The notes below the pieces were generated by a model, which saw only the letters and a list, made by a program, of their open reading frames with translations, was not told the origin of the DNA and did not search any database. From positions 444,001-508,000 of the forward strand of contig NZ_LR134378.1 of NCBI RefSeq assembly GCF_900637555.1: a stretch of DNA of 64,000 bases, given 5' to 3'. Source of the stretch: Lautropia mirabilis (lineage in GTDB: Bacteria > Pseudomonadota > Gammaproteobacteria > Burkholderiales > Burkholderiaceae_E). The position numbers were made by a program, and so were the translations under genes. The number at the start of each line of letters is the position of its first letter. Within the stretch, counting starts at the first letter, position 1. Shown piece by piece: positions 5,707 through 63,981 of this stretch.

Positions 5707-5723
5707 GGCCCGTCTGACGAATC

Positions 5724-5787: not shown

Positions 5788-5933
5788 CTGGAAAGCCGCT
5801 GCGTGGCCTGATGCCCGGTACCGCTCGGATACGCTGCGTCGTTCCATGCAGATGCACAGCACCGCTCGGATGCCAGCGCGGCTCAGATGCGCAGTGCCGG
5901 GCTGCAGCACGATGCGCTGCGCCCGGACACGCA

Positions 5934-43727: not shown

Positions 43728-44492
43728 GGACTTCTCCTAAGGCCATCATCAATCCGTAACGGGTATATGGGGACGATTCCGCGCAAGCCGGGATGCCATG
43801 CTCCGCCCTGTCCAGGTACGGAGAGCGCCCCACCTGCGGCAACTGCTGTCCGCCCGGTCGACGGAACCGGGGCGCACGATGGCCCCGTACAGCAGGAAAT
43901 CGCCCTGGCCCGACCAGACAGGAGTCGTCACCCGCCGGGAGCCCGAATGGCGCGCCGTGCGCCATCTCCGGGGCTTTCCGGGCGGTTGCGCCCTGCCTCG
44001 GGAGCGCCCGAGGCCTGGACCAGCCTGCAGCCCTGTTATTTCTGCAAGTGCTGAAATTGTACTCACCGCACCGCACCAGGGCGTAGCATGGACAGCAAAT
44101 GGTTTTCCCCTATATCCCCTGAAAACCCGCACCATCCGCCAGTCGGCAGCCATTCGCCCCTGAACGGCATGCCAAGAAAAGCAGTAACGAGAATGATTAT
44201 TTAATTCTTTTATGAAATGGATTGACTCGGATAATCGAGCACGCCGAACGAGCCCACGGAAGACGATGCGAGGGCTCCGCACAGCCCTCGCTGCCCACGG
44301 ACAGCACCGTGATACCTGAACAGCCCTCACGCCGACGTCTCCAGGCCCCTGACAGGCGTAGACCGTGGCCAAGGGGCGGGGCCCCCAAAAAACGAACAGG
44401 GCCGCCTCGCCCACCCGCACCTGGGTGAATGAGACAGCCCCTGAACGAAAGCAGCCCCTGCCTCGCCGGCAGACCCGGCAGACGCAGTCCGC
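43728..44492. other. 765-bp gap between the DUF1269 gene and acnB
   Basis: I see no convincing gene. The open frames here encode Arg/Pro/Trp-rich sequence without family resemblance. The gap holds a perfect hairpin GCGAGGGCT/AGCCCTCGC (44268-44291), an AT-rich stretch around 44180-44225 and, at its left end, the acnB ribosome site. It should contain the acnB promoter, possibly with a long leader. Confidence 0.5.
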
Positions 44493-45110
44493 TTACTTGA
44501 ACTTCTGCGCCAGCTCCTCGAACTTCTGCCGGATGGACTGCGCGAACTCTTCCAGCTTTTCCTTGCGCGCCTTGGTGTGCCGCGCCTTCAGCTCGGCGGC
44601 CGCACGGGCATGCAGGTCAGCCTGCACCTCCAGCGCATCCTCCATCTGCTGCTGGATGGTGGATGCGTCCCAGCGCACCACCAGCGACTTGAACCTGCCA
44701 AAGAACTGGTCCAGCGGCGCCTCGGACTTTTCCTGCACCAGCGCAATGATCGCCACATCGCCGTCATTGAGCTTGGCCGCCACCGTCTCGAGCAGCGTGG
44801 CCTGTGCCAGCGCCTCGTCGGTACTGCCCGTGCTGCCCACCCAGGCCCCCACGTTGGCGCCAAAAAGCATGCCCAGCGGGCCGCCCAGGATGCCCAGCAC
44901 CGAACCGATCAGCGTGCCGGTGATGGTGTCGTCATCCACCTGCCTCAGCGGATCGAAGGCATCCACCGGCGTGATGACACCGTTCTCGTTCTTGACCAGC
45001 GCCGCCTGGGCAATGCGCGTGTCGTCATTCTGCGGGAAGGCCTTCAGCTCCACGAAGGCCTGGTAGGCCTCGCTGGGTACCTCGAACAGGGTTGCCAGTA
45101 CGTGTTCCAT
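44493..45110 (-). CDS. DUF1269 family membrane protein
   Basis: This 205-residue protein has a central glycine-zipper-like hydrophobic segment (GTLIGSVLGILGGPLGMLFGANVGAWVG, about 65-92) flanked by soluble alpha/beta regions and a charged C-terminal helix. This layout and the VVRWDASTI ending of the core fit DUF1269, often annotated as general stress or permeability-related. The ribosome site AAGGAG is well placed. A TetR-type palindrome lies about 140 bases upstream. Confidence 0.8.
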   Translation of the reverse strand: MEHVLATLFEVPSEAYQAFVELKAFPQNDDTRIAQAALVKNENGVITPVDAFDPLRQVDDDTITGTLIGSVLGILGGPLGMLFGANVGAWVGSTGSTDEALAQATLLETVAAKLNDGDVAIIALVQEKSEAPLDQFFGRFKSLVVRWDASTIQQQMEDALEVQADLHARAAAELKARHTKARKEKLEEFAQSIRQKFEELAQKFK

Positions 45111-45250
45111 AATCGTGCTCCTTCTTGTGTGAATGATAGTCCCTGCCCATCAGCAGGCAGGCCGGATGGTACCAGGATCGCTGGCGCCTTTCCTGCCAAG
45201 GTACCCCATCCGTGAGCGGCCCATGGCCAAGGGCCTGCAGCCTTGCAGGT

Positions 45251-45272
45251 TTTATGACCGGTCGGTCATAAA
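45251..45272. promoter_or_regulatory. 22-bp palindrome resembling a TetR-family operator
   Basis: TTTATGACC-GGTC-GGTCATAAA has perfect 9-bp arms, and its GACCGGTCGGTC core is a common TetR-family operator form. It lies between the cupin stop and the DUF1269 start, so it would most likely control DUF1269. No TetR gene is seen in the window. Confidence 0.6.
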
Positions 45273-45306
45273 TCGTGCCACCGAAGGCGCGGCCGAAGCC
45301 GCACCA

Positions 45307-45666
45307 TCAGGCTGGCTGGAAACCAGCCGAAGGACGAATCACCGACAGCAGCACGCAGTCCTCATGGCCGACATTGATGGCACCGTGCGTCTGCTCAATG
45401 CCGACCACCACGCTTTCACCGGCATGGATGGTGCGCCGACTGCCAGCCGCATCATCTATCAGATCGGCCTCGCCGCGCAGCACCAGCCAGATGTCCTCAC
45501 CGCTCGGGTGCCGATGCGGCGGAAGGCTGCCCTGCGGCGGAATCTGCCACAGCACGAGATTCATGTCCGTACTCTGATGCAGCACGGTACGGACTGCCTC
45601 TGTCGGCCGCTCCTTCAGGTATTGGCTGATGTTCAGGATCTGCGGGACTTGAACGGTCGCGCTCAT
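45307..45666 (-). CDS. small cupin-domain protein
   Basis: This 119-residue single cupin has the metal-binding motif 1 (PPHRHPSGEDIWLVLRGEADL, about 47-67) and motif 2 (HAGESVVVGIEQTHGAIN, about 81-98). The His and Glu residues would hold one divalent metal. Activity is unknown; small cupins include isomerases, dioxygenases and binding proteins. The ribosome site GAAGGAGAA is strong. Confidence 0.85.
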   Translation of the reverse strand: MSATVQVPQILNISQYLKERPTEAVRTVLHQSTDMNLVLWQIPPQGSLPPHRHPSGEDIWLVLRGEADLIDDAAGSRRTIHAGESVVVGIEQTHGAINVGHEDCVLLSVIRPSAGFQPA

Positions 45667-45827
45667 GGTCGTTCTCCTTCATGGACGGCGGCGTCGTGAC
45701 CACCCCACCTGCATCTTGCCACACGACAATGCCGCGGGGGCTCCATGCGCCCAGCCACATGCGTCATGGCATGCAGCCCCCTCATCCAATCACGCACCGC
45801 GGCAGGCCTCCTGCCGCGCACCGGATG

Positions 45828-47420
45828 TCACGGCGTATCGGCCAGCTTCACTTCCTGCGACACCGGATAGCCGCGCATGGAGCCGCGCGTGCCGTAGCCG
45901 GCCACCGTGGTGCCCGTCATGCAGTCGTCGCCCATCATGCCCTCGGCATGGCAGTCGGCGTAGGCCAGCGTGTCGATCTGGGCCTGCGTCAGCGGCAGCA
46001 GCGGATCCTTCGTGTTCACGAAGATGCGGGCATAGGCGTTGCCCGGGTTGCTGGCTCGACGCTCACCGTGGTGGTAGCCCCAGTACTTCCAGCCTCCGGT
46101 GCCGGGTGTCCAGCCATCGGTGCCGGCATCACGCGGGTCGTCCGACAGCGTGTTGGTGTGCTCCAGCAGGAAGCTGGTCACCAACAGGCCATCACCCGCC
46201 GGTGCAGCGATGCTGGAGAGCTGATGCCGCAGCGACAGCAGCGGCATGCCATCCGGCCAGGGCTGGTTCGGCTGGTTGTTGCCGGCCATCACCTCGCTCA
46301 GCTCACCCGACAGGTCAGACACGGTCATGCGGGTGGCGTTGTAGCGGAAGCTGCCGTGGAACTCGGTCATGTCATGCGCATAGTCGGGTTCACGGAACTT
46401 CGCCACCACCGTGTAGCGACTGATGACATCAGCCGGCTCCGAAGCGGGTCCCGTGCCTGCCGCATTGGTGACGGACAGCGCAAAGGCATGTCCCGTGCAG
46501 CCACTGGCCGGACAAGGAACCGTCACCGGCAGGGTCTGCGCCTGCACCGTGATGCCGGCCGGAACCGACGTCACGGTATAGCCCGACACCGCCGCGCCAC
46601 CGCCCCGGACATGACCGGCCGTCACCAGCACGGTGCCGTCCTGCGTCCCCCGACGGGCCGTCACCTTTTCCGGTGCCACCGGCACCGTCACGGCACCGGC
46701 TGCGGCAATCTCGAAGCTCTGCGTCAGGCGCGTCCCCGTCTGCCCCGAGGCCGCATCACGCGGCTCGGCTGCCACGGTACAGGTCCCAGCCGCCAGCGCC
46801 GTCACCAGGCCACTGTCGGCATCGGCACGGCACACGGCTTCGGTCAGGCTGCTGTACCGCATCGGCCGATCGCTGCTGGCCGAAACCGTGACGGTGGCAC
46901 TATCCCCCACGGTCATTGATGGTACGGCGCCGAACTGTACATTAGACTGCACGGTGATCTGCTGCTGTGCGCTGGCAGAGGCCCAGGTGGTGTCGCCCGC
47001 CTGGCTGGCCGCGATGACGCAATTGCCTGCGGCACGTGCTGTCACCTCCCCGCTGTCGGCATCCACCGTGCAGACGCCGGTGGTCGAGCTGTTGTAGCGC
47101 ACGGCCAGACCCGAGCTGGCCGTGGCCGATACCTTGGCCGTGCCGCCAGGCTGCAGGGCAGGCGCTTCGGCAAACTGCAAGGATTGCGGACGTGAGCCGA
47201 TGACCGGCCCCCGCTCTCCGCCAGGCCCTTCTGCACCCCCGCAGGCTGCCAGAACGGCCAGCATCACCACGGAAGCTCCGGCCAAGGAAAACGTGCCGAC
47301 CGTGAAGCCATTCGGCCGACTTCCGGTTTCATGGTTTGCCAAGCGCGCCCCCGAAGACACGCCGACACCATCGTCATGCACTGCCCGGATGCGACCACCG
47401 GAACGATATGAATCCGTCAT
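45828..47420 (-). CDS. Ig-like repeat lipoprotein with Cys/His/Met-rich C-terminal domain (copper-cluster gene)
   Basis: I do not recognise the full protein (530 residues). A hydrophobic stretch ends in lipobox LAAC (Cys60), after an unusually long 45-residue n-region. Two Ig-like repeats follow (about 80-157 and 161-240), each with the pattern C-x-AD-SG-x-VTA-x-AAG-x-C. Next is a fibronectin-III-like segment (about 247-333). The C-terminal domain (about 335-530) is rich in His, Trp and Tyr and contains Cys490-His491, Met495-Met496, Cys500-Met501, a good ligand set for Cu(I). It starts ten bases after the copper-receptor stop, with GAGGG upstream, so it is in the same operon. It is probably cell-surface or periplasmic. 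A copper-handling role is inferred from ligands and context. Confidence 0.75.
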   Translation of the reverse strand: MTDSYRSGGRIRAVHDDGVGVSSGARLANHETGSRPNGFTVGTFSLAGASVVMLAVLAACGGAEGPGGERGPVIGSRPQSLQFAEAPALQPGGTAKVSATASSGLAVRYNSSTTGVCTVDADSGEVTARAAGNCVIAASQAGDTTWASASAQQQITVQSNVQFGAVPSMTVGDSATVTVSASSDRPMRYSSLTEAVCRADADSGLVTALAAGTCTVAAEPRDAASGQTGTRLTQSFEIAAAGAVTVPVAPEKVTARRGTQDGTVLVTAGHVRGGGAAVSGYTVTSVPAGITVQAQTLPVTVPCPASGCTGHAFALSVTNAAGTGPASEPADVISRYTVVAKFREPDYAHDMTEFHGSFRYNATRMTVSDLSGELSEVMAGNNQPNQPWPDGMPLLSLRHQLSSIAAPAGDGLLVTSFLLEHTNTLSDDPRDAGTDGWTPGTGGWKYWGYHHGERRASNPGNAYARIFVNTKDPLLPLTQAQIDTLAYADCHAEGMMGDDCMTGTTVAGYGTRGSMRGYPVSQEVKLADTP

Positions 47421-47429
47421 GTCTGTCCC

Positions 47430-49757
47430 TCAGAACTTGTAGTTGAAGCCGACGTAGACGGAACGCCCATGTCCGGGCACCGCCACGCCCCACGGCACGG
47501 TGTTGAGCATCATCGAACTGCCCTGGCCCACGTAGGCCCCACCCAGCGGCAGCGCATAGCCGCGGTCCAGCAGGTTCTCGATGCCCAGATCGATGCCCAG
47601 CTGGCCGATCTCGTAGCGCGTGCGCAGATGCAGCAGGCCATAGCCGGCCGTGCGGATCTCGTTGCGCACGGCAGAGCGCCGCGTCTTGGAGCGCACGCCT
47701 TCCCATTCCAGCGTGCCGCTCCATTCGCCCTCACCCACGGTGCGCCGATGCTCCAGCCCCATCCGAAGATTGGCCGGCATGGTGTTGTAGAGGCCACCAC
47801 CGGTATCCAGGTTCTTGCCATGCAGCCAGGCCAGCTTGCCGCTCAGCGTGAGGCTGCCAGCATGCGGACTCCGGGCCAGCAGCCAGTGGCCGGACACGTC
47901 GGTACCCAGCAGGCGCGCATCCTGGTTCACGTAGCGCAGCAGCACGAACTCGTTGTCGGCCGTGGTGTTGCCACTGCGGCACTGGCTGGCCGAGCAGCGC
48001 TCTGCATCCACGTAGTCCGAGATGCGGGTCAGGTGCGCGCTCACCGTCAGCCCCCAGCGTTGCTCATCCTCGGGATGATGCCAGTTGCCGCTGACACTCA
48101 GCGTGTGAGCCACTTCCGGCTTCAGGTCCGGATTGCCCAGATAGCCGTTGCCATCGCCCAGGAAGTTGTTCATGCCCGCGGCCATGGTGTTGGTGGACCA
48201 TGGATAGCGCTCGTACAGGCTGGGCGAACGGGTCTTGCGAGCCACGCCCATCTCGTAGCGATGACCCTTGGCCGGTTCATAGCTGGCCAGCGCGCTGAAA
48301 TCCCAGTGACGGTCATGCCGCCGGCGACTGATCGAATTGAAGGCCGACGCATCATCCGACCAGGTGGGCAGGCCGTTATAGCCCCGCACCGGACCGGCGT
48401 CGGTACGCACCTGCGTGTGCCGCAGCCCGATGACGCTGCTCCAGCGTGCATCCCAGCTGCGCTCCCATTCGGCATAGGCGCTCAGCCGGTTGCGACGCCC
48501 GTCGTCAATGTTCCAGAAGTCGTTCGGCGCCATGCCACCGCTGGCCCCGACCGGCGGCCACCAGTCATACAGCTGGTAGTACAGGGCCTCCAGCCCCAGA
48601 CGCACGGTATCCCGTTCGTTCAGCATCCAGCTGGCCTGGGCCGTGGCGCCATCGGTACTGGCGCGGGTGCGCATGGGCATGCCGGTACCGTAGCTGTAGC
48701 GGTCCTCACCCATGTCCATACGGTGGCGGATGCGCTGGTTCCACAGGCGCACCTTCAGGTCGCCCCAGGAGAACTGCCCCCGATAGCGCAGACCGGCCAG
48801 CGTGGCGCGGTTCTCCGTCATGTCCATGCGCTGGTTCGGGAACCCCTGGAAAGGCATGTTCTGCCAGCTGAAATCGGTCTCCAGCAGGTGCATGCCGCTG
48901 CGCCAGGCCGCTGCCATCCGGTGGTTCTGCACCCGGAAGCCGCTGGAGCCCACCTCGTCACCCGGCAGCACGCGCCCCTGTTCGCGGCCGGTCTCGGCCG
49001 GCTTGAAGTCATTGCCGGCGCGGTAGTTGCGTGCCCGCGCGTAGGAGCCTTCATATTCCAGATGCAGCCGCTCCGTGGCGTAGTGCGTGCCCAGGCTCAC
49101 ATCCACCCCATGGCCGTTGCTGCGGTAATGGGTGCCCACGTGGCCGCCCAGCAGGGGCTTGCCGTCAGGATCGGCAAAGCTTGGCGGTGCAGACTCCACC
49201 TGGATGCTGCCACCGATGCTGTCGCCGCCCGCGCTGACGGGCGAGATGCCGGCGTAGACACGGATGCTCTCCACCTTGGCCGGGTCGATGTAGGACAGCG
49301 CCGGGTTCATATGGTTGGCACAGGCCGCCATCAGGTCCATGTCATCCACCGTCAGGCGCAGCCGCTCGTCGGCCAGACCATGAATCACCGGCAGACCCGA
49401 CACGCCACCTGCCCCCTGCACGTCCACACCGGGCATGTCCTTCAGCAGGCCCGTGGTGTCCGGCGTGGTGGCACGACGGCGCGAGATCTTGCCCGAATCC
49501 GTCACGCCCGACCCAGGCAGCGACATGTTGGGGGGCTGCACCTCGAAAAGACGCAGCGCACGAACGCGCACCTGCGGCAACTGCACGGTTTCGTCCTGGG
49601 CCTGGGTCGTGTCACCCATCTGCCCGGCATCCTGCGCCCAGGCCGGCAGTGCGAGTGCACCCAGCGCCGTGGCCAGCAGCGCAGGCACCCGGGCCACGGA
49701 AAACCTGTGGCCCGCATCGCCCCTGCGTCTGGCGGCTTTCATCTTGTTCATTGTCAT
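47430..49757 (-). CDS. TonB-dependent copper receptor (OprC/NosA type)
   Basis: This 775-residue outer-membrane receptor has a signal peptide ending near PAWAQ, a plug with VIHGLADERLRLTVDDMDL, and a barrel ending in Phe (YVGFNYKF). The key feature is Cys146-x3-Met150 (CANHM) in the plug. In OprC of Pseudomonas aeruginosa the equivalent CxxxM (Cys143/Met147) binds copper. The AGISPVSAGGDSIGGSI segment is also characteristic of this group. The start at 49757 was chosen for GAGGA eight bases upstream. It lies 22 bases after the MbnH-like gene. Confidence 0.9.
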   Translation of the reverse strand: MTMNKMKAARRRGDAGHRFSVARVPALLATALGALALPAWAQDAGQMGDTTQAQDETVQLPQVRVRALRLFEVQPPNMSLPGSGVTDSGKISRRRATTPDTTGLLKDMPGVDVQGAGGVSGLPVIHGLADERLRLTVDDMDLMAACANHMNPALSYIDPAKVESIRVYAGISPVSAGGDSIGGSIQVESAPPSFADPDGKPLLGGHVGTHYRSNGHGVDVSLGTHYATERLHLEYEGSYARARNYRAGNDFKPAETGREQGRVLPGDEVGSSGFRVQNHRMAAAWRSGMHLLETDFSWQNMPFQGFPNQRMDMTENRATLAGLRYRGQFSWGDLKVRLWNQRIRHRMDMGEDRYSYGTGMPMRTRASTDGATAQASWMLNERDTVRLGLEALYYQLYDWWPPVGASGGMAPNDFWNIDDGRRNRLSAYAEWERSWDARWSSVIGLRHTQVRTDAGPVRGYNGLPTWSDDASAFNSISRRRHDRHWDFSALASYEPAKGHRYEMGVARKTRSPSLYERYPWSTNTMAAGMNNFLGDGNGYLGNPDLKPEVAHTLSVSGNWHHPEDEQRWGLTVSAHLTRISDYVDAERCSASQCRSGNTTADNEFVLLRYVNQDARLLGTDVSGHWLLARSPHAGSLTLSGKLAWLHGKNLDTGGGLYNTMPANLRMGLEHRRTVGEGEWSGTLEWEGVRSKTRRSAVRNEIRTAGYGLLHLRTRYEIGQLGIDLGIENLLDRGYALPLGGAYVGQGSSMMLNTVPWGVAVPGHGRSVYVGFNYKF

Positions 49758-49779
49758 CGGTCGATTCCTCGTCTGTCCT

Positions 49780-51081
49780 TCATGGGCGGGATGCGGCATC
49801 TCTCCGGAAAGGATCGGAAAATGCCGGATCGCTCAGGAACGTTTCATCCGTCAGCGCTTTCAGGAAGGCCACAATGTCTGCGCGATCCTGCGCCGACAGG
49901 CCCCGGTCGCGAACGAGCGGACTCTTGTGCGGGTTGGCACGTCCATCACCGGCCCGCGGACCACTGGTGATATTGCGTCCACCACCGGCCATGATGGCCA
50001 CCGCCTCTTCAAGCGTAGCCACCGAACCATCGTGCATGTAGGGCTCGGTCACGGCCACGTTGCGCAGGCTGGGCACCCGGAAGGCCCCCATGTCGGCCGG
50101 GTTGGCGGTGATTTCCTCGACGCCGGTGTTTTCTTTCGGGTAGTCGCCCCGACCGTTCAGGTTATAGAGTCCGATGTTGTGATACCGGACCTTCAGCGTC
50201 GTCGTCTCGACACTGACGAACTGGTCATCGAAATTCGGGGGTTGATGGCACTGCGTGCATTCGGCCTTCTCGAACAGCTGCCGGCCACGCAATTCCTGCT
50301 CCGACAGCGTGACCTTGCCCTGCAGGTAGCGGTCATAGCGGCTGTCGGCTGTGACCATCGTGCGCTCGAAGGCGCTGATGGCCTTGAAGATGTTCTCCCA
50401 GGTCAGCGGGTCGCCCTTGGCATCGGGAAACGCCTGCTGAAAGCGCACCGGATAATCCACATCCTTGGCACTGGCCAGGCGCTTCAGCACCTCCTGAACG
50501 GAACTGTCGTTCACGCCCATCTCCACGGGTTCGGTACCAAACACAGGGTTCGGGATCTGGGCCTCCAGCGACATCAGCACCGGATTGGACCACGTCTGTG
50601 TGGCATGCCAGGCCACGTTGCCCAGCCCCATGGAATTGCGGGGATGCTGCACATTGGTGATGCCACGCGGACGGTCCTTGCCGTCGGCAAAGGCACGCGC
50701 CTGTTCATGACACGAGGCACACGACATGGTGCCGTCACCCGAGAGGCGCCGCTCATGGAACAGGTAGCGCCCCAGCGCCACCTTGGCGGCATTCATGGGG
50801 TTGTTCGCCGGCACGCGGGGGGCTGGCATGTGCGAAGGAAGCTTCCATTCCCAGGCGTCAGGCGGGCTGTAGGCCGGATAGGTCCAGTCCAGCACGGTAG
50901 GCGCTGCGGCCTTCCCCTGGCTGCTACCTGCATCCGGTGTCGGGCTGCTGTCCGAAGAGCCTCCTCCACATCCCCCACAGCTCAGCAGCAGCACCAGCAT
51001 GGCACCCGCTGCACATCTGGACACCTCACGCCGACATCGGCGACTGCCATGCAAGGGCAGATGGACGGGCAGAGAATTCAT
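49780..51081 (-). CDS. MbnH-like di-haem enzyme (MauG/cytochrome c peroxidase superfamily)
   Basis: This 433-residue exported protein has a lipobox-like LLSC (Cys35) and two c-type haem sites: CASCH (121-125) and CTQCH (275-279). Motifs FADGKDRPRGI, HPRNSMGLGN and AFRVPSLRNVAVTEPYMHDGS fit the bacterial cytochrome c peroxidase/MauG superfamily. Position directly after an MbnP gene identifies the MbnH subgroup, which oxidises a tryptophan of MbnP to kynurenine. The start follows AAGGAGG. It acts in the periplasm and needs c-type cytochrome maturation. Confidence 0.87.
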   Translation of the reverse strand: MNSLPVHLPLHGSRRCRREVSRCAAGAMLVLLLSCGGCGGGSSDSSPTPDAGSSQGKAAAPTVLDWTYPAYSPPDAWEWKLPSHMPAPRVPANNPMNAAKVALGRYLFHERRLSGDGTMSCASCHEQARAFADGKDRPRGITNVQHPRNSMGLGNVAWHATQTWSNPVLMSLEAQIPNPVFGTEPVEMGVNDSSVQEVLKRLASAKDVDYPVRFQQAFPDAKGDPLTWENIFKAISAFERTMVTADSRYDRYLQGKVTLSEQELRGRQLFEKAECTQCHQPPNFDDQFVSVETTTLKVRYHNIGLYNLNGRGDYPKENTGVEEITANPADMGAFRVPSLRNVAVTEPYMHDGSVATLEEAVAIMAGGGRNITSGPRAGDGRANPHKSPLVRDRGLSAQDRADIVAFLKALTDETFLSDPAFSDPFRRDAASRP

Positions 51082-51130
51082 GAGAGACCTCCTTCAGTGA
51101 CACGGGCCACCCCGCAGGCAGCCCGGACAG

Positions 51131-51155
51131 GGGGAAGCGAGCCCTTCGCTTCCCC
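51131..51155. repeat. 10-bp perfect hairpin between MbnH-like and MbnP-like genes
   Basis: GGGGAAGCGA/TCGCTTCCCC with a five-base loop lies in the 136-base gap. No U-run follows on the minus strand. It could protect the mbnP-like message end and set unequal expression within the operon. Confidence 0.6.
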
Positions 51156-51217
51156 TCATCCCTCATGCAGCATGCCCCCACCGGGGTGAGCATGCCCGCA
51201 TGACGTTACAGCGACGC

Positions 51218-52276
51218 TCAGGGCGTGACGGCCTTCAGCACCTTCTGCGTCTTGCCGGCCACGGCCACACCGGTGCCGCTGCCATCGGCCTTCCAGTCCA
51301 GCGCCAGAGCATCGAAGGGCTTGGCGCAACCGGCATCGGTCGCACCGGACATGCAGCCGCCAGCACCTTCGGCCTTGCTGGCGATGTCATAGTTGAACAG
51401 CGCGCCGGCATCGAAAGCCACGACCTGGCTGGCGGGGTTGAAGCCGGCCAGCGTGACGGTGACCCGGTTGGGGGCCTTGCAGCTGGAGATCGGCGTGCCT
51501 GCGGCCGGATTGCCCACGCAGCCGGTGGAACCCAGGTGCAGGCGCACGGAACCCTCTTCGGCCTTGCCGTCCTTCACCTCGGCCGATTCCCAAGCCGAGG
51601 GATCAACGTTCTCGTTCTGGTCAAACTGGATGTTGGTGAACTTGCGGCCACCGCGCCAGTTCCAGGACATGGACGGATGCACGGCGTTCTGCAGCACGCG
51701 CGGCGTGGTTGCGTCAGCCGCATTCAGGTGGTTCAGCTCGAAGGGCACGCCCAGCGTCATTTCCACGCCGGTGTAGCTGCCTGCCGGCACCGTGCCTTCG
51801 ATGGCGGCGTTGGTGGCGGCGGAACCGTCGCACTCACCCACGCCCTTCTGCTCCAGGTCGATCAGGCTGACGGTGTTCTTGCCGTCGTTGCTGGTGTAGT
51901 TGTAGTCGTTGGCCTGCTTGAGCTTGAGGGGCTCGCGGGTGCCATCGGCCTTGATCAGGCTGACGTTGGAGATGTAGAAGCGGAAGTCCTCGATCTGCAC
52001 GGCACGTTGCTTCGTGCCCAGCTTCGTCGTGCTGTTGCAATCGATCTTCTCGGCGCCGTTGTAGGCGGCAAACTTGATGCTCACGTCACCCGTGGTGCCG
52101 GTCTGCCAGGCGCCACCGGTCGTGCCGGTGGTGCCCGTCGTACCGGTGGTGCCGGTCGTGCCGCTGTTGCTGGTGGCGGTGCTGTTGTTGTTGTCATCGC
52201 CGCCGCAGGCAGTCAGGCCGACGGCGCAGGCCAGCAGCAAGCCGGCGTAGACGGGGGTCTTGGCAAAGCGTTTCAT
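51218..52276 (-). CDS. MbnP-family copper-binding lipoprotein
   Basis: This 352-residue lipoprotein has lipobox LTAC (Cys24), an Asn/Thr/Gly low-complexity linker (about 28-60), and an MbnP domain with DFRFYISNVSLI (about 97-108), GVPFELNHLN, and HPSMSWNWRGGRKF (200-213). His200, Met203 and the tryptophans 205 and 207 are the candidate metal site and kynurenine precursor. MbnP proteins bind copper in the periplasm in and outside methanobactin operons. The start is set by AAAGGAG. A five-unit 9-bp DNA repeat encodes part of the linker. Confidence 0.88.
   Translation of the reverse strand: MKRFAKTPVYAGLLLACAVGLTACGGDDNNNSTATSNSGTTGTTGTTGTTGTTGGAWQTGTTGDVSIKFAAYNGAEKIDCNSTTKLGTKQRAVQIEDFRFYISNVSLIKADGTREPLKLKQANDYNYTSNDGKNTVSLIDLEQKGVGECDGSAATNAAIEGTVPAGSYTGVEMTLGVPFELNHLNAADATTPRVLQNAVHPSMSWNWRGGRKFTNIQFDQNENVDPSAWESAEVKDGKAEEGSVRLHLGSTGCVGNPAAGTPISSCKAPNRVTVTLAGFNPASQVVAFDAGALFNYDIASKAEGAGGCMSGATDAGCAKPFDALALDWKADGSGTGVAVAGKTQKVLKAVTP
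52118..52162. repeat. five 9-bp tandem repeats in the MbnP-like gene
   Basis: Five near-identical 9-base units encode five Gly-Thr-Thr triplets in the linker after the lipobox. Being in frame, copy-number change would only lengthen or shorten the tether. Confidence 0.8.
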
Positions 52277-52452
52277 GAAGAAGCTCCTTTCCTTGGAAGG
52301 ATGAGAATGGATGGAAGCAATGCGAGCGAGAATGGCAACAGCCTGCGGATGATCCATTTCGCGCTTGCGAATACGGAATCCGACCAAACGACAGACAAGC
52401 GATCAGGACACGCCCGGGGCGGTGCTCATGCCCCGAAAAGGGTGCAGATGCT

Positions 52453-52926
52453 TCAGGCAGCCGAAGCAGGCTGCCCGGCGGGAGGCCCACGCGGGTGCGC
52501 GGGCGCGATCTGACGGGCGACGAGCGTCACCCGGACGACAGGCACCTGCACCATGGCAGGCGCCGTGACAGCGTCGAAGGCAGCCGCCGGCGTGGGCGGC
52601 GCCAGAAGATGAACCAGGACCACGCACAGCGCGCAGTGATCCAGATGCAGCCCGTCCTCATGCGACCCCTGGGAAACGGGCTTTACCGGGCCATGCACTG
52701 CCCGATGATCAGAAGGAGCGTCCGGGAGTTCGGCAGGCTGCCCGGATGCTTCGTGCGGCATGCAGTGATCCATCCATGCGGCCTGCACGGCATGCGGGTG
52801 GGACAGACCCTGGCCGGCTTCATGGGCTGCCAGTGCCCGCGACACCGTAGGCGCGAGCAGGGCCAACCCGAAGACCCACAGGGTAAGCCAGACCAGCCCA
52901 CGATGACAAAAGCCGCGACGGTTCAT
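52453..52926 (-). CDS. DUF2946 family protein, CruR-like copper-responsive upstream reading frame
   Basis: This 157-residue protein has an N-terminal hydrophobic segment (about 10-30), His-rich stretches, Cys55-Met56-x-His58, and the DUF2946 hallmark HLDHCALCVVLVHL with CxxC at 98-101. In Bordetella pertussis, a DUF2946 reading frame named CruR lies upstream of a TonB receptor gene and makes its expression respond to copper through the CxxC. Here it is the first gene of the copper cluster, 176 bases before mbnP. The start at 52926 gives a normal signal-like N-terminus; an in-frame ATG at 53025 is possible. Confidence 0.8.
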   Translation of the reverse strand: MNRRGFCHRGLVWLTLWVFGLALLAPTVSRALAAHEAGQGLSHPHAVQAAWMDHCMPHEASGQPAELPDAPSDHRAVHGPVKPVSQGSHEDGLHLDHCALCVVLVHLLAPPTPAAAFDAVTAPAMVQVPVVRVTLVARQIAPAHPRGPPAGQPASAA

Positions 52927-53028
52927 GCCGATGATGCCGATGGAAACGGCGCGGGACGCGGGGCGCCCGGCCAGCCTGCAATACCTGAACGATGCACTGC
53001 CTGCCAAGCCATGTGACATGGCCATGCG

Positions 53029-53061
53029 TCAAGCCCCTTGACGCGGCATGACAGCTTTCAT
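53029..53061 (-). CDS. possible 10-residue leader peptide
   Basis: ATG at 53061 follows a near-ideal AAGGAGG and encodes MKAVMPRQGA before a TGA. The stop lies three bases before the in-frame ATG at 53025 that could start a longer DUF2946 protein. It contains no Cys or His. Translation here would carry ribosomes to the DUF2946 start. It may be a true leader or an accident of sequence. Confidence 0.35.
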   Translation of the reverse strand: MKAVMPRQGA

Positions 53062-53384
53062 GAGCCTCCTTGGACGAAAGCCGGATACAACATATCAGCC
53101 TTCTGATGTGAAAGATTATATACAGCTTATGAACTTGCACCAGCCCGGCAGCCATAATGACATTCGTTTCGGGCCAGGCAACAGAAAAACACCCGAAGAA
53201 TGTCACGAAAATTATGGTAATGAAAAGCGGGGCGACACCCCGTCGATATAAATGGCAGGGTAAACCCTTAGACTTCGGATCCGAAAACCCCTTGCAGGAC
53301 AGGCCTGAACGCCATCCCCGGAAGAGAGGCATACAAAATAGAAGCGTCCGTTCGGACATATTCCATCACGGACGCGTAAGCCAG

Positions 53385-53418
53385 AAAAAGCAAGGCCCGA
53401 TCCTTTTCGGAACGGGCC
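53385..53418 (-). terminator. intrinsic terminator of the DHH-family gene
   Basis: Read on the minus strand, GGCCCGTTCC-GAAAA-GGATCGGGCC (one mismatch) is followed by TTGCTTTTT. It lies about 70 bases after the DHH gene stop and would insulate the copper cluster from read-through. Confidence 0.75.
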
Positions 53419-53486
53419 ATCGGATTGCCTCCACGGCTGTCGATCGATTTTGCGCCTTTTAAATTGATAATGCGCAAATTAAGATA

Positions 53487-54458
53487 TCAGGCCGTCTGAC
53501 TCACCTTCGACGTCCTGGGCGATGCGTTCTCGCTCTCGATGCGGACCAGCACCTCGGCCAGTCGCTGCTCGGCCCATTCATTGCCGATCTGGCAGGTACC
53601 GGCATACTGGTGACCACCACCGCCGAAGCGCGTGCACAGGTCGCCGATGTCGATCGTCGAGGCCGTGTTGAAGATGGAGCGGCCCAGGGCAAACACCGTG
53701 TTGGCCTTCTCGCGCCCCCACATCACATGCAGCGACATCGTGCAGTTGGGGAACAGCGCATAGACCAGGAAGCGGTTGGCCGCGTAGATGATCGACTCGT
53801 TGCGCATGTCCAGCACCACCGTGCTGCCCTGCACGTGGGCGCAGCGGCGCAGCTGTTCGATGGCCTTCGATTCATGCTCGTGGTAGCAGCGCACGCGTTC
53901 GGCCACGTCCGGCAGCGCCAGGATGCGACCGATGTCCATGGAGCGGCAGGCATCGACCAGCATCATCATCAGCTGAAGGTTGGAGATGCGGAAGTCATGG
54001 AAGCGCCCCAGACCGGTACGCGGGTCGGCAAGGAACCCGAGCAGCGTCCAGTCACGCGGATGCAGCACGTCGGCCAGCGTGTACGAGGCGCTGCCTGCCT
54101 TGTCGACGGCAGCCATCAGCGCCGGCGAGAAGTGAGGGAAGCGACTCTCGCCTCCGAAGTGATCGTAGATCACGCGGGAGACCGAGGCCTCGCCCACCCC
54201 CATGACCAGGTTGCTGTAGCCCACCCTGGGCAGCACCCGCGACCCCGGCGCCTGGTAGTCGAACACCTGACCGGCCGTGGCCACGTAGGGCAGGTTCACC
54301 AGCATGTCGTCCTTGTCCACGTGCACCTTGCCGTCCTGAACATCCTTCGGATGCACGAACATGACGGCATCGACCACGCCGATGTCTCGCAGCATGGCGG
54401 CGCTGACCAGACCATCGAAGTCGGAACGGGTAATCAGGCGGTAGGGTTCGGTACGCAT
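53487..54458 (-). CDS. DHH-family phosphoesterase (exopolyphosphatase-related)
   Basis: This 323-residue cytoplasmic protein has the N-terminal SDFDGLVSAAML metal motif, VFDYQAPGSR, and the DHHA1 motif FGGGGHQYAGTC near the C-terminus. The classical DHH triad is degenerate: a clear Asp-His-His is not seen in the middle (VFDYQ in place of FDHH). It fits the exopolyphosphatase-related group rather than NrnA or RecJ. It is divergent from aceK across about 220 bases. Confidence 0.8.
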   Translation of the reverse strand: MRTEPYRLITRSDFDGLVSAAMLRDIGVVDAVMFVHPKDVQDGKVHVDKDDMLVNLPYVATAGQVFDYQAPGSRVLPRVGYSNLVMGVGEASVSRVIYDHFGGESRFPHFSPALMAAVDKAGSASYTLADVLHPRDWTLLGFLADPRTGLGRFHDFRISNLQLMMMLVDACRSMDIGRILALPDVAERVRCYHEHESKAIEQLRRCAHVQGSTVVLDMRNESIIYAANRFLVYALFPNCTMSLHVMWGREKANTVFALGRSIFNTASTIDIGDLCTRFGGGGHQYAGTCQIGNEWAEQRLAEVLVRIESENASPRTSKVSQTA

Positions 54459-54677
54459 GGGAAAAACCTGCTTCTGCTCACGGTGCAGCAACGTGCACCA
54501 CCAATTGGGCAGTATCTTCCCTCTCGGGCAGGCTGAATGCTCCTGGCCGATATGCGGCCACCCCGTCCGTACCGGCGGCCCGGCATGGTGCACCGCCACA
54601 AGCGCCAGGGCCCGCCCTCTCCGGGTTTTCACCGATAGGGCACGCTCCGTGCTGCAGAGCACCGTTAAGATTGTCCA

Positions 54678-56498
54678 ATGCCCAAGCACGCCATCCCCCA
54701 CCCCCCTTCCGCCACGCCATCCAGCATGCTGGATGGCGACAGCCTGCCTGCCACCCTGGCACGCACGATGCTGGCCGGCTTCAATCGGCACTACGGTCTG
54801 TTCCGCTACAACGCGCAGCAGGCCAAGACCTGTTTCGAGAATGCCGCCTGGCACCGGATGCGACGGCTGGCCAGCGAGCGCATCACCTTCTACGACCAGC
54901 GCGTGAACGAGGCGGTCGAGAAGCTGCGCGCCCAGTTCAACACTGACAGCCTGGCCGATGACGTCTGGGCCGAGGTGAAGCAGTACTACGTGCTGCTGCT
55001 GGCCGAGCACCAGCAACCCGAGCTGGCCGAGTCCTTTTTCAATACCGTCAGCACCCGACTGCTGCAGCGCCAGTATCTCCACAACGACTTCATCTTCGTG
55101 CGGCCGGCTGTCTCCACCGAGCACCTGGACGGCACGCCACCCTCCTTCCGGGTCTATTACCCGGAGAACAGGCCCTGGAAGGAGGTCCTGCGCCAGGTTC
55201 TCATCGACATGGGGCTGGCCTGCGGCTACCGGGACATCGAGGATGACCTGCAGAAGGTGATCGAGGCCGCCCCCACCCTGTTCGGCGAGCAGGCAACGCG
55301 GGCCATGGATTGCCAGGTGCACGTGCTGCGCTCGCTCTTCTACCGCAACAAGGGCGCCTACCTCATCGGTCGCATCGTCAATGACGGCGAGGTGCAGCCC
55401 TTCTCGCTACCGCTGCTGCGTAACGGCCATGGCCGGGTGTTCATCGACACGGTGCTGTTCGCGCCCGAGCACATCGAGGGGCTCTTCAACTTCTCAAGGG
55501 CCTACTTCATGGTGGACATGGCGGTGCCGTCAGCCTACGTGCGCTTCCTGCGATCGCTGATGCCCACCAAGCCGCAAGCCGAGCTCTACACGATGCTGGG
55601 CCTGCACAAGCAGGGTAAGACGCTCTTCTACCGCGACCTGCTTCAGCATCTGCACGAATCCACCGATCATTTCATCGTGGCCCCCGGCATCAAGGGTCTG
55701 GTGATGGGCGTGTTCACGCTGCCCTCGTTCCCGTATGTCTTCAAGTACATCAAGGACGTGCGCCGCAAGGACATCAGCCGTGAGTTCATCGAGGACCGCT
55801 ACCACCTGGTGAAGAACCACGATCGTGCCGGCCGGATGGCTGACTCGTGGGAATACTCGGACGTGCCCTTCCCCAAGAGCCGGCTCTCCTCCGAGCTGCT
55901 GACCGAGCTGCAAGCCACCGCCCCCTCGCTGCTGGTCGACGAGGGCGACTGCATCGTCATCCGTCACCTGTACATCGAGCGGCGAATGACGCCACTGAAT
56001 CTCTACCTGGAGCAGCAGCCCGACGAGGCTGCACGCGACTACGCCGTCTATCAGTACGGCATGGCCATCCGCGACATGGTGGCGGCCAACATCTTCCCGG
56101 GGGACATGCTCTACAAGAACTTCGGCGTCACCCGCCAGAACCGGGTGGTCTTCTACGACTACGACGAAGTGCAGTACCTCACCGACTGCAACTTCCGCAA
56201 GGTACCCGAGCCGCGCACCCCCGAGGACGAGATGGCGTCCGAGCCGTGGTATCCGGTGGCACCCAATGACGTGTTTCCGGAAGAGTTCGGCACCTTCCTG
56301 CTGGGCAACCCCCGGGTACGCAAGCCCTTCCTGAAGCACCATGCCGAGCTGCTGGATCCCGTCTGGTGGCAGAACCAGCAGGCCCGCATCCGGCAAGGCA
56401 TCCTGGACGATGTCTTTCCCTATCCCCGGCGACTGCGCTTTTCCCGGGCCGACGAGGATCCCGGCCGGCCCTCATCGCCCCAGAAGCCCGGACGCTGA
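54678..56498 (+). CDS. aceK: isocitrate dehydrogenase kinase/phosphatase
   Basis: This 606-residue bifunctional enzyme phosphorylates and dephosphorylates isocitrate dehydrogenase, directing flux to the glyoxylate bypass during growth on acetate or fatty acids. AceK landmarks are present: FRVYYPENRPWKEVLRQVL, DCQVHVLRSLFYRNKGAYLIGRI, PGIKGLVMGVFTLPSFPYVFK and YDYDEVQYLTDCNFR. The length is slightly above E. coli AceK (578). It is followed within 40 bases by a thiolase gene, a sensible partner in fatty acid use. Confidence 0.95.
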   Translation: MPKHAIPHPPSATPSSMLDGDSLPATLARTMLAGFNRHYGLFRYNAQQAKTCFENAAWHRMRRLASERITFYDQRVNEAVEKLRAQFNTDSLADDVWAEVKQYYVLLLAEHQQPELAESFFNTVSTRLLQRQYLHNDFIFVRPAVSTEHLDGTPPSFRVYYPENRPWKEVLRQVLIDMGLACGYRDIEDDLQKVIEAAPTLFGEQATRAMDCQVHVLRSLFYRNKGAYLIGRIVNDGEVQPFSLPLLRNGHGRVFIDTVLFAPEHIEGLFNFSRAYFMVDMAVPSAYVRFLRSLMPTKPQAELYTMLGLHKQGKTLFYRDLLQHLHESTDHFIVAPGIKGLVMGVFTLPSFPYVFKYIKDVRRKDISREFIEDRYHLVKNHDRAGRMADSWEYSDVPFPKSRLSSELLTELQATAPSLLVDEGDCIVIRHLYIERRMTPLNLYLEQQPDEAARDYAVYQYGMAIRDMVAANIFPGDMLYKNFGVTRQNRVVFYDYDEVQYLTDCNFRKVPEPRTPEDEMASEPWYPVAPNDVFPEEFGTFLLGNPRVRKPFLKHHAELLDPVWWQNQQARIRQGILDDVFPYPRRLRFSRADEDPGRPSSPQKPGR

Positions 56499-60242: not shown

Positions 60243-61838
60243 ATGCTTGACCTCCTGAAGTCCTACAAAACCTACCTGTCCGGCCTGTGGAAGTATCGGG
60301 TCTCAGGTCTGGTGGCCATGCTCATCACCGGCGTGCTTGGCATCATCATCACCGTGGTGCTGCCCGGCAACTACGAGGCCACGGCACGTGCCTATGTCGA
60401 CACCAAGTCGATCCTGCAGCCGCTCATGCAGGGCATGACCGTGCAGCCCGACATGCAGGGCCAGATCCAGATGATGGCCCGCACGCTGGTCAGCCGCCCC
60501 AACCTGGAAGCCATCGTCCAGGCCACCGGCATGGACCACGATGTGCAGACCCAGAAGGGGCGCGAGGCGCTGATGCAGACGCTGGAGAAGAGCATCCAGT
60601 TCAAGCCGGCGGGCGGTACCAACTTCTACAGCATCGAGTACCGCAATCAGTCCCGGGAAACGGCACTGAAGGTGGTGACGATGCTGCTGGACCTGTTCGT
60701 CAAGTCCACCCGCACGGGCAAGACGGCCGACACGCAGCAAGCGGTGCAGTTCATCGACCAGGAGATCGCCAAGGCCCGGGACCTGCTGCTGCAGACCGAG
60801 ACCGCGCTCAAGGAATTCAAGATCAAGCACATCGAGGTGATGCCCAACCTCGCGCAGGACTATGTGGCCCGCTCGGCCGACATCCAGCGTGAACTGCAGA
60901 CGGCCCGCCTCGAATATCGTCAGGCCGTCAACTCGCGCACCGCCATCCGCACCCGCCTGGAGGCCGTTCCCGAGTACGTGCCGGTGGGCGGTGGCCAGGC
61001 CGACGGTGGCGGCAGCGAGACCGAGCGCCGCCTGGAATCGGCCCGCAAGCGCCTGGACGACCTGCTCACCCGCTACACCGACGCACACCCGGACGTGATC
61101 AACACCCGTCACTCCATCCGCGAGCTGGAAGTCCAGCTGCAGAAGGAAGCCCTGCGGCCGGTGGACTCGCGCCCGGGTCGGGGCAAGATCCCCAACCGGC
61201 TGTACCAGGAGATGTCCATCGCCATGGCCGAGGCTGACGCCAAGGTCGCCTCACTGGCCGCCCGTGTGGCCGAGGCCGAGGCGCAGGCCAAGCGAGCCCG
61301 CGAGATTGCGCTGGCCATCCCGAAGGTCGAGGCCGAGTACATCCAGCTCAACCGCGACTACGACTCCAACAAGCAGAACTACGAGAAGCTGCTGCAGCGC
61401 CGTGATGCCGCCCGCCTGGCCGGCAGCATCGAGGAAAACACCGGCACGCGCGAGTTCCGCGTGGTCGATCCCCCGCGCGTGAGCCCGCGCCCGGTCTCGC
61501 CCAACCGGCCGCTGCTGCTGGGCATCTTCTTCGTGGTGTCGCTGGTGCTGGGCCTGGCCGTGGCACTGGTGCGCGAGCTGGCCAACCCGGCCTTCTACGA
61601 GCCCAACGCCCTGAAGGCCGCCACCAAGGTGCCGCTCTTTGGTGCCATCACCCGCTATCGTGATGAAGCCGCCCAGAAGCTGGCCCGCAAGCAATCGTTC
61701 CGCTTCACCGCCACCCTCGTCGGCTACACGCTGGTGTTCGTGGTGCTGATCCTCATCTACGTGATTGATGCAGGCCAATCCAGCGAAGCAGCACCGGCAC
61801 CCACCGCACAACACACCCAGCAGAAGGTGATGTCATGA
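60243..61838 (+). CDS. XrtA-type polysaccharide chain length determinant (Wzz-like)
   Basis: This 531-residue inner-membrane protein has two transmembrane helices (about 22-42 and 425-445, with a further hydrophobic segment near 493-513) around a long coiled-coil periplasmic region. Motifs [22 protein letters not shown] and [22 protein letters not shown]-like [17 protein letters not shown] fit the PEP-CTERM chain-length family. It sets polymer length with the following kinase. Its stop overlaps the kinase start. Confidence 0.9.
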
Positions 61839-63007
61839 ACAAGCGACTCGTTCAGCGGGCGATGCAGAAGCTGGTGGACCAGAATCCGTCCCGGCCGCTG
61901 CACCAGCACACCACCATCACGCCCACCACCACCATCACCCCCAGCACGACCACGCCGCGGACCCTGAGTCAGGGCAGCGCCACGCTGATGGCTTCCTCGG
62001 CCGAGGCCGAGGAGGCGATGGCCGCCGGCATCCGGGCCGACATCGCCCGTGCCGAAGCGCTGCGGCAGGCCCGCGAGCGCGGCGAGCAGGTCAACGGCCG
62101 GCTGGACACGGCAGCGGGTGGTGCCAGGATCGACACCCAGGCTTCGGCCGGCGCCTCCTTCCCGGCCGCACAGGGCCAGGGCTCGGCAGACCGGCAGGAC
62201 GGCGCGGCCAACAGCGCGTCCTCCGCGAGCGAAGCACACGGCAGCAATGCCCATTCCGCGACCGGACACATCCCCTCGTCCGGCCGCGCCGTCATCCAGC
62301 TGGATTTCGATTACCTGAAGGGACGTGGCTTTCTGGTACCGGACGACAAGACCTCCAAGATTCACCAGGAGTTCCGTCTGGTGAAGCGGCGCCTGCTGGA
62401 CAACGCCTTTGGCCGCCTGCGCCCCGTGGTGGGCAACGGCCGGCTGATCATGGTCACCAGCTCGCTGCCCAGCGAGGGCAAGACCTTCTCGGCCATCAAC
62501 CTGGCCATCAGCATCGCCATCGGGGGTGAACACCCGGTGCTGCTGATCGATGCCGACATCGCACGTCCCAGCGTCTCCAACACGCTGCAGCTGGACATCC
62601 CCGACGAAGTCGGCCTGACCGATTACCTGGAAGACCCCACAATCCCCATCAGCGAGCTGCTGCACGAGACCTCCGTGCCCGGGCTGTCGCTGATGACGGC
62701 CGGCCACCTGAATCATCGTCCGGTGGATCTGCTGGCCTCGAACAACATGGCGCAGCTGGTCGAGCGGCTCAAGACCATGCTGCCGCACCATGTGATCATC
62801 TTCGATACGCCCCCGCTGCTGCCCGTCACCGAGACCCGCTCGCTGTCGGCCCTGGTGGGGCAGGTGATGCTGGTGGTCGCTGCCGGCGAGACGCCGCGCA
62901 GTGCCGTCAACGAGTCGTTGCTTCAGCTTGAGAATTGCGAGGCTGTCGGCCTGCTGTTCAACAAGGCCCCCGTACAGCCCAAAGCACCCGCTTACTACGG
63001 ATACTGA
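61835..63007 (+). CDS. XrtA-associated tyrosine autokinase
   Basis: This 390-residue BY-kinase has Walker A SSLPSEGKTFS (209-219), Walker A' LLIDADIARPS and Walker B-like VIIFDTPPLLPVT. The C-terminal PAYYGY gives a tyrosine cluster for autophosphorylation. The first about 150 residues are unusual: a Thr/Pro/His tract (about 23-44) and a Ser/Ala/Gly-rich spacer. It regulates polymer export with the chain-length protein, with which its start overlaps (ATGA). Confidence 0.88.
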   Translation: MNKRLVQRAMQKLVDQNPSRPLHQHTTITPTTTITPSTTTPRTLSQGSATLMASSAEAEEAMAAGIRADIARAEALRQARERGEQVNGRLDTAAGGARIDTQASAGASFPAAQGQGSADRQDGAANSASSASEAHGSNAHSATGHIPSSGRAVIQLDFDYLKGRGFLVPDDKTSKIHQEFRLVKRRLLDNAFGRLRPVVGNGRLIMVTSSLPSEGKTFSAINLAISIAIGGEHPVLLIDADIARPSVSNTLQLDIPDEVGLTDYLEDPTIPISELLHETSVPGLSLMTAGHLNHRPVDLLASNNMAQLVERLKTMLPHHVIIFDTPPLLPVTETRSLSALVGQVMLVVAAGETPRSAVNESLLQLENCEAVGLLFNKAPVQPKAPAYYGY

Positions 63008-63009
63008 GC

Positions 63010-63981
63010 ATGTACAAATCATTTTTCGGATTGAAGTCCAAGCCGTTCCGACTGAATCCGCACCTGCGCTTCCTCTTCAACAGCGAGGCCATCCAGCGCG
63101 CAGTCAACACCCTGAAGTACGGGCTGTATCAGCGTGAGGGGCTGGTGCTGCTGACCGGCGCCCCGGGCTGCGGCAAGACCATGCTGGTGCAGAACGTCAG
63201 CCGCCGCCTGCCCGACGCCGGCATCCAGGTCTTCACCATCGCCACGCCCCGTGCCAACGGCCATTCGCTGCTGCTGCAGATCTTTGCCGCCCTGGGGCTG
63301 GACGTGCCGGCCGACGCCGACACGGCGCAGCTGCTGCGCACGCTGCAGAAATACCTGCTGGGTGAAGTCCAGGCCAACCGCCGGCTGCTGCTGGTCATCG
63401 ACGAAGCCCACAACCTCGAGGACGATGCGCTAGAGGTGGTGCGGCTGCTCTCGGACATGCAGCTCAACGGCAACCTGCTGCTGCAGATCTTCCTGGTGGC
63501 GCAGCCCGTGCTGCGCGCACGCCTGGCCACGCCCCGTCTGGATGCCCTGCGCCAGCGCTTCCTCGTCACCGATCACATCGACGGCCTGACGCCCGAGGAA
63601 GTGCCCCAGTACATCCAGAAACGGATGCAGCAGGCCGGCTGGCAGGGTGACACCCCGTTCGACGCCGAAGCGATCGAGCGCATCCAGCAGGCCACCGACG
63701 GCAACCCCCGCCAGGTGAACATCCTGTGCGAGCGGCTGCTGACGCAGGCCTACGTGGAAGAGAAGACGCGCGTGACCCTGACCGACGTGGACAACACGCT
63801 GCAGGACATGGAAGACGAATGGCGCACCTCGGTCACCGTGGCCGACAACCCCAGCGCCTCGAAATCCGCCCGGCTGCAGGACATGGAACGCCGGATGGCC
63901 TCGCTGGACGCCTCGCTGGATCAAATCTCGCAGGTGACCAACACCATTCTGGTACGACTGGACGGACTGCGGCAGGGATGA
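63010..63981 (+). CDS. XrtA-associated AAA ATPase
   Basis: This 323-residue ATPase starts MYKSFFGLKSKPFRLNP, has Walker A TGAPGCGKTM (about 47-56), Walker B LLLVIDEAHN, and a C-terminal coiled coil. This matches the ExeA-like ATPase of PEP-CTERM exopolysaccharide loci. It begins two bases after the kinase stop. Its role in export is not known in detail. Confidence 0.88.
   Translation: MYKSFFGLKSKPFRLNPHLRFLFNSEAIQRAVNTLKYGLYQREGLVLLTGAPGCGKTMLVQNVSRRLPDAGIQVFTIATPRANGHSLLLQIFAALGLDVPADADTAQLLRTLQKYLLGEVQANRRLLLVIDEAHNLEDDALEVVRLLSDMQLNGNLLLQIFLVAQPVLRARLATPRLDALRQRFLVTDHIDGLTPEEVPQYIQKRMQQAGWQGDTPFDAEAIERIQQATDGNPRQVNILCERLLTQAYVEEKTRVTLTDVDNTLQDMEDEWRTSVTVADNPSASKSARLQDMERRMASLDASLDQISQVTNTILVRLDGLRQG

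Follow-up and report, generated by a model that had tools for sequence, protein, structure and literature searches.

A probable copper acquisition operon of Lautropia mirabilis that joins MbnP, MbnH and an OprC-like receptor to a lipoprotein of a new family

The stretch analysed here, called the window, comprises 64,000 nucleotides (nt) of Lautropia mirabilis, positions 444001–508000 of NZ_LR134378.1, the single 3.17 Mb contig of this genome. On its minus strand, at 45828–52926, lie five open reading frames (ORFs), which encode, in order, a CruR-like protein (DUF2946), an MbnP-family lipoprotein, an MbnH-type di-haem enzyme, an OprC-like TonB-dependent receptor and a second lipoprotein. All five were found at the place, on the strand and in the order given by an earlier reading of this DNA (the original prediction), which had proposed copper uptake. 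The gene order, the family membership of three of the genes, the ligand residues of the receptor and the linkage of the fifth protein's domain with such receptors are direct observations. The metal, the regulation and the surface location of the fifth protein are inferred from them, and the operon is probably a copper-responsive, CruR-controlled system for copper acquisition. More tentatively, and with somewhat less than even confidence, we propose that the fifth gene is the first member of a family of Cu(I)-capture proteins at the cell surface, which would each serve a single branch of OprC-like receptors and work with no small-molecule chelator.

The first ORF (52453–52926, minus strand as for all features of the operon; 157 amino acids) matches PF11162 with 32.5 bits, over the cut-off of 23.7. 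It carries the CxxC already reported for it, as CALC at residues 98–101, and also RGPP at 146–149, a stall motif that had gone unnoticed. The two motifs are separated by 44 residues and RGPP lies eight residues before the end of the protein; when the same protein was shuffled 200,000 times, the CruR pattern arose three times. In Bordetella pertussis CruR, the CxxC and RAPP motifs are 45 residues apart and the leader has 162 bp (PMC9426467), and RAPP stalls ribosomes in vitro, as RGPP does in other peptides (PMC12992588). In the window, the intergenic leader between the CruR-like ORF and mbnP has 176 nt (52277–52452) and is the expected site of a copper-dependent Rho termination.

The identical five-gene order occurs at L048, L007 (a Pseudomonadota metagenome-assembled genome) and L100 (an Ideonella plasmid). 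The CruR relatives of these three loci score over the PF11162 cut-off, that of L100 narrowly (24.8 bits), and have CALC/RAPP in L048 and CPLC/RGPP in both L007 and L100. Because the order recurs in other genomes and the CruR pattern is rare in shuffles, the five-gene locus is more than a chance arrangement. Outside the genus, a pattern search recovered a CruR-type ORF at six of 17 MbnH loci (L032, L036, L037, L043, L045 and L046, among L030–L046, several of which end at contig ends); L046 has a row made up of CruR, a TonB receptor of another kind, MbnP and MbnH.

The genes had been described as separated by short gaps, which holds for two of the four: the receptor and lipoprotein genes are 9 nt apart, and the ORFs of MbnH and the receptor have a gap of −20 nt (or 22 nt with the receptor start placed at 49757). 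Those between CruR and MbnP and between MbnP and MbnH (136 nt) are not short. No Rfam family reached its gathering score within 44000–55000, and a consensus search for sigma-70-type promoters found none, with 1.6 expected.

The second ORF (51218–52276) encodes an MbnP with a lipobox. It matches TIGR04052 (219.9 bits, cut-off 140) and PF20243, and aligns with PDB entry 7l6g (E 1.8e-29), with its WNW (residues 205–207) inside the alignment. The third ORF (49780–51081) matches TIGR04039 with 425.4 bits (cut-off 362.85), aligns with PDB entry 6e1c (E 4.8e-121) and has two CxxCH motifs, at residues 121 and 275; both family assignments of the original prediction are therefore borne out. Among the five loci checked (window, L047, L048, L007 and L100), the WxW motif and the MbnP lipobox are present in all and a lipobox pattern in MbnH in two. 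In Methylosinus, the first Trp of this WxW is converted to kynurenine, and MbnP binds Cu(I). Within the window's order, MbnH passes the TIGR04039 cut-off in 19 of 399 sampled genomes, and the MbnH of the same five loci form one clade with support 100/99 in a tree of 27 rows, from which L013 and L014, with weaker MbnH matches, were left out.

At L100, the gene at 4564–5835 (NZ_CP088082.1) is annotated as 'methanobactin export MATE transporter MbnM'. A MATE pump is ruled out by two CxxCH motifs and a TIGR04039 score of 406.4 bits (cut-off 362.85); the gene encodes MbnH and its annotation is a naming error.

The fourth ORF encodes the receptor (47430–49757, open to 49799; PF00593 and PF07715). 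A phmmer search against the PDB gave OprC as its sole relative at E ≤ 0.001, with a best E of 5.6e-15. The copper ligands of OprC are Cys143, Met147, His323 and Met325 (PMC8610252). In the window's receptor, the plug half of such a site is CANHM (49308–49322), at residues 160–164 counted from the ATG at 49799 and at 146–150 counted from the ATG at 49757, the numbering with which the CxxxM was first reported. The barrel half, HRM (48717–48725), had not been noticed before. Across 50 aligned receptors of this branch, C160 is conserved in 49, M164 in 48, H359 in 48 and M361 in 49, and all four in 48; the exceptions are a second receptor of L047, which lacks the four ligands, and the receptor of L088, which lacks M164 and H359. 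The HxM column coincides with the HLM or HVM of three receptors found with the OprC model TIGR01778, one of which (L102) is over its cut-off. Methionines 325, 374, 376, 423, 539, 543 and 674 are kept in 49–50 of the 50 receptors. Position 363 (HxM-x-M) is Met in nine receptors, all of them paired with the domain of the fifth protein, and Phe in 36, none of them paired. By its residues, then, the receptor carries an OprC-type copper site, and copper would be its transported substrate. Receptors of this kind occur at E ≤ 1e-60 in 73 of 399 genomes of the window's order, a limit that keeps the L046 receptor (E 7e-07) outside the alignment and the tree; L101 was left out of the OprC comparison because the longest frame there was not the right one, and the receptors of L116, L118 and L119 are in the tree and not in the 50-row alignment.

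The second receptor of L047 (3883–6456) belongs to the same branch and lies just upstream of the operon. It has PVRAL and NHL at the two half-sites and a long branch, and a new substrate or decay is possible. In addition, genes for TonB-like proteins, named by eye from one sequence, lie near the receptor at nine loci (e.g., L060, 10843–11535), 12 of 12 on the strand of the receptor, which suggests that they are dedicated energisers of these receptors.

The fifth ORF (45828–47420) encodes a lipoprotein of 530 residues with the lipobox LAAC (Cys60), an Ig-like (Big) stalk with a repeat matching PF02368 (24.9 bits, cut-off 22.8), and a C-terminal domain of about 195 residues (334–530; 45828–46421) matched by no Pfam or NCBIfam model. 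Over the whole protein, no NCBIfam model matched, nor did PADLOC. It had been called Cys/His/Met-rich; with 9 Cys, 11 His and 12 Met it is not rich overall. What stands of that description is a set of conserved Cys and Met in the C-terminal domain, most of them within one block, YADC-x4-MMG-x2-CM...GSMRG (residues 487–517; 45870–45962), which are proposed as Cu(I) ligands. Among 22 copies of the domain, C490 is found in 20 (Met in the other two), M496 in 22, C500 in 20, M501 in 20, M515 in 22 and M378 in 20. Its His are mostly unconserved, and H399 alone is shared by a majority of copies (14/22). L098 and L099 each have a second copy in which both Cys are replaced and several Met remain; since these are sister genomes, the loss counts as one event, and its pattern would suit a soft-metal site more than a disulfide.

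The domain is anchored in different ways. A lipobox was found by script at five of five loci (window, L047, L048, L007, L100), and lipoprotein-like copies with no PEP-CTERM-type tail also include those of L116 and L117 and one copy each of L097 and L119, these last four assigned by eye. PEP-CTERM signals were detected by Pfam in the five copies of L050, L054 and L075 and by eye in the two of L118, and VPxP-type tails were seen by eye in one copy each of L097 and L119 and in both copies of L098 and of L099. Ig-like repeats exceed the Pfam cut-off only in the window; those of L007 and L100 score below it.

The domain family is new, and the rest of the operon is largely known ground. No description of the domain or of its link with receptors was found in the open-licence literature, where a family with no name is hard to search. 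Its 22 copies come from 15 intact loci, at all of which a same-branch receptor directly adjoins a copy on the same strand (at L117 the contig ends within the receptor gene); extra copies stand in tandem at L075, L098, L099 and L118. Some of these loci are close kin, as G529 and G658, and G866 and G918, are of the same genus, and G802 and G928 of the same family. The converse does not hold, and only three of 41 receptor loci read, which are 40 of the listed receptor places, mainly the best-scoring, plus L044, have the domain. An unrooted tree of 53 receptors, made by a quick method, places the 38 receptors with no domain in one group, and all 14 domain-paired receptors plus the second receptor of L047 on the other side; the L117 receptor (361 residues) was left out. 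Pairing requires two label changes on this tree, against a mean of 12.4 in shuffles, and none of 500 shuffles was as low.

Searches found the domain in 4 of 74 genomes of the family (one a remnant; single-sequence query), 5 of 398 of the order, 4 of 369 of the class, and 2 of 12, 4 of 111, 2 of 54 and 2 of 2 in four families chosen for holding it; these sets overlap, and L007 entered through MbnH. It was present in 1 of 72,556 plasmid records, and 46 pattern matches in viral contigs included no relative. The remnant (L049) was left out of the 22 domains, and L006, on the same contig as L048, was left out throughout. The gene that precedes cruR in the annotation of the Ideonella plasmid encodes a transposase/integrase. 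The remnant belongs to G019, where a gap of about 160 nt separates a 49-residue piece of MbnP from residues 445–524 of the lipoprotein (L049, 8852–9395); no piece of MbnH or of the receptor was found in 19 kb by tblastn at E ≤ 1e-4. Most simply, this genome once held the operon and lost it by deletion.

From these elements a working order can be proposed. When copper is scarce, ribosomes would stall at the RGPP of CruR and keep Rho off the leader, so that mbnP, mbnH and the receptor and lipoprotein genes are transcribed; copper binding to the CxxC of the nascent CruR would free the stall and turn the operon off, as modelled on the B. pertussis protein. The receptor would import ionic copper over the outer membrane through its CxxxM-HxM site. 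The linkage of the genes, a shared phylogeny and the conserved residues make the fifth protein a putative surface partner of the receptor, a lipid-anchored Ig-like stalk which would hold out the domain, whose Cys/Met block may capture Cu(I) and pass it to the receptor, as TbpB and HpuA do for iron receptors. In such a two-part copper receptor, the Cu(I) site would be extracellular and kept there by sorting of the exosortase type in some cases and by a lipid-anchored Ig stalk in others. In the periplasm, to judge by the families, MbnH would oxidise the first Trp of the MbnP WxW to kynurenine, giving MbnP a high-affinity copper site to receive or store the metal.

The same parts could be arranged for copper defence, with MbnP and the lipoprotein sequestering toxic Cu(I) and the receptor in a secondary role. 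MbnP-type proteins bind Cu(I) tightly and Cys/Met blocks are generally able to buffer copper, which would suit this arrangement; however, TonB receptors import, and CruR shuts its operon at high copper (PMC9426467), the wrong direction for defence, which makes this alternative very improbable.

Several observations weigh against copper acquisition as described here, and the first concern the receptor. Its score with the OprC model TIGR01778 is 85.8 bits, below the cut-off of 472.45, and the best NCBIfam score is that of a haem/haemoglobin receptor subfamily, 143.8 bits, itself below 316.85; the same ranking was obtained for three scanned relatives and for the Ideonella receptor. The receptor might thus take haem or another chelate, and the operon would then supply haem or iron, with MbnH making use of the haem. 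Yet both scores are far below their cut-offs, OprC is the only relative in the PDB by sequence, 48 of the 50 receptors retain the four copper ligands and a CruR-like ORF heads the operon, so haem supply is improbable, if slightly less so than copper defence. The structure model of the receptor, built from a three-row alignment, is unusable, with a predicted local distance difference test (pLDDT) value of 30.7.

The other points concern the operon as a unit and the fifth protein. At L047 (G014), the other four genes are present with no recognisable CruR ahead of mbnP, and a CruR-type ORF immediately precedes the receptor at three of the 41 receptor loci (L077, L079 and L087). MbnP and MbnH accompany the domain–receptor pair at five of the 15 loci (window, L047, L048, L007 and L100); the sequences at L098, L116 and L117 are truncated, and the remaining loci, including L050, L054, L075, L097, L118 and L119, have no MbnP/MbnH pair in the stretches read. 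Because of such pairs and of the few receptors preceded by CruR, the parts of the operon are not interdependent everywhere. The model of the domain, also from three rows, is weak (mean pLDDT 59.4), with block means of 45 and 30 over model residues 161–180, inside the Cys/Met block, and its fold matched no PDB entry at E ≤ 0.001. Surface exposure of the lipoprotein is a prediction, made from its lipobox and the gene linkage, and the two Cys of the domain could form a disulfide.

The domain protein might instead be a structural or exopolysaccharide-linked surface protein with a disulfide and no role in metal handling, its adjacency to the receptor reflecting co-regulation. In favour of this, relatives include members of the PEP-CTERM class, which is associated with exosortase and exopolysaccharide; the window has XrtA-type exopolysaccharide genes at a distance of about 7 kb; and the domain has variable His and Cys positions. 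On the other hand, the adjacency holds at 15 of 15 loci, the paired receptors occupy one side of the tree, and the loss of Cys with retention of Met in L098 and L099 disfavours a plain disulfide. Nor does the PEP-CTERM class speak against metals, given that ZepA of Anabaena, a PEP-CTERM exoprotein with Zur-linked regulation, mediates zinc uptake (PMC10957091). We regard a purely structural role as rather unlikely.

The precedent of ZepA raises zinc as the metal of the operon. ZepA shares the PEP-CTERM form with some copies of the domain and has a role in metal uptake; however, the operon of the window has CruR and not Zur, its domain has conserved Cys and Met, and lipoprotein forms exist. The ZepA motif H-X2-9-H-F/Y-H occurs in none of the 22 domains, which rules out the domain as a ZepA, and with CruR, MbnP and the CxxxM-HxM site all pointing to copper, zinc is extremely improbable.

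The exopolysaccharide genes, of XrtA/exosortase type, lie at 60243–63981 on the plus strand and continue into L120. The chain-length determinant exceeds the TIGR03007 cut-off (444.6 bits, cut-off 278.85), and the tyrosine autokinase (219.1 vs 230.65) and the ATPase (254.5 vs 324.5) remain below theirs. Further on are glycosyltransferases, XrtA-type amidotransferases (below cut-off), deacetylases and a Wzy_C protein, and no exosortase model matched the nine following ORFs scanned (NCBIfam, E ≤ 1e-15). The domain, which is PEP-CTERM-anchored in some genomes, is on a lipoprotein in the window.

Copper acquisition under CruR remains the reading that we set beside known systems. The original prediction had presented the combination of genes as new, a claim that weakens on comparison: CruR operons include OprC-type receptors and MbnPH-like genes, and the text of Roy 2022 is silent on their co-occurrence within one operon (PMC9426467). 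Because both kinds of gene are reported there, little is new in genes one to four, and the real novelty is the lipoprotein. The copper-acquisition part of the prediction, with CruR at the head, is well supported, and more strongly than the original prediction could make it, with the RGPP stall motif, the HxM half-site and the order in other genomes all in agreement. From the cruR operon of B. pertussis (cruR-bfrG/crtA-bp2921) and its relatives, the operon described here differs by its OprC site, by a fifth gene of a new family, and by the lack of a PepSY_TM gene among the five genes in a Pfam scan. CrtA/BfrG receptors have no conserved Cys or Met, and a PepSY_TM gene follows more than 75% of them (PMC12914433); the conserved C160, M164 and other Met, with no PepSY_TM among the five genes, rule out a receptor of that type here.

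With OprC and NosA, the receptor shares the CxxxM in the plug and the HxM in the barrel, and its seven further Met columns recall in a general way the methionine track of OprC. It differs from them in scoring below TIGR01778 and in forming a separate branch, part of which is paired with the new protein. The MbnP/MbnH pair is likewise a WxW MbnP beside a two-haem MbnH, joined here to an OprC-like receptor; at the loci read, no recognised genes of methanobactin biosynthesis adjoin it. The conservation of MbnPH pairs extends widely outside the producers of methanobactin, and isolated Methylosinus pairs lie near MbnT-like receptors (PMC3621798). The suggested independence from methanobactin fits the loci read, in which neither the genes identified in this analysis nor those annotated for the Ideonella stretch include mbnA or mbnB, although the genome as a whole was not searched for methanobactin genes. 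MopE/SACCP and CorA/CorB are functional parallels of MbnP/MbnH, CorA being a surface protein with Cu(I) and kynurenine (PMC3912023).

For the fifth protein, the closest analogy is one of proposed logic only. In the TbpB/TbpA and HpuA/HpuB systems, a surface lipoprotein feeds a TonB receptor encoded by the adjacent gene; here the ligand would be copper.

Copper import in Gram-negative bacteria is poorly known and the role of MbnP/MbnH outside methanobactin producers is open; the operon sets this pair in one row with a receptor bearing a copper site and a copper-type regulator. If the proposal is true, Lautropia and Ideonella join a capture protein to CruR and MbnP/MbnH, which would form a surface-to-periplasm copper route in one operon. 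The partnership of the new family with its receptor is directly testable with purified proteins, and the occurrence of PEP-CTERM and lipoprotein anchors on one domain offers a handle on the function of exosortase substrates.

Elsewhere in the genome of the window, a di-haem peroxidase-like match (L029; G000:C1:2975803-2976573) contains one in-frame TAA and could be a decayed gene.

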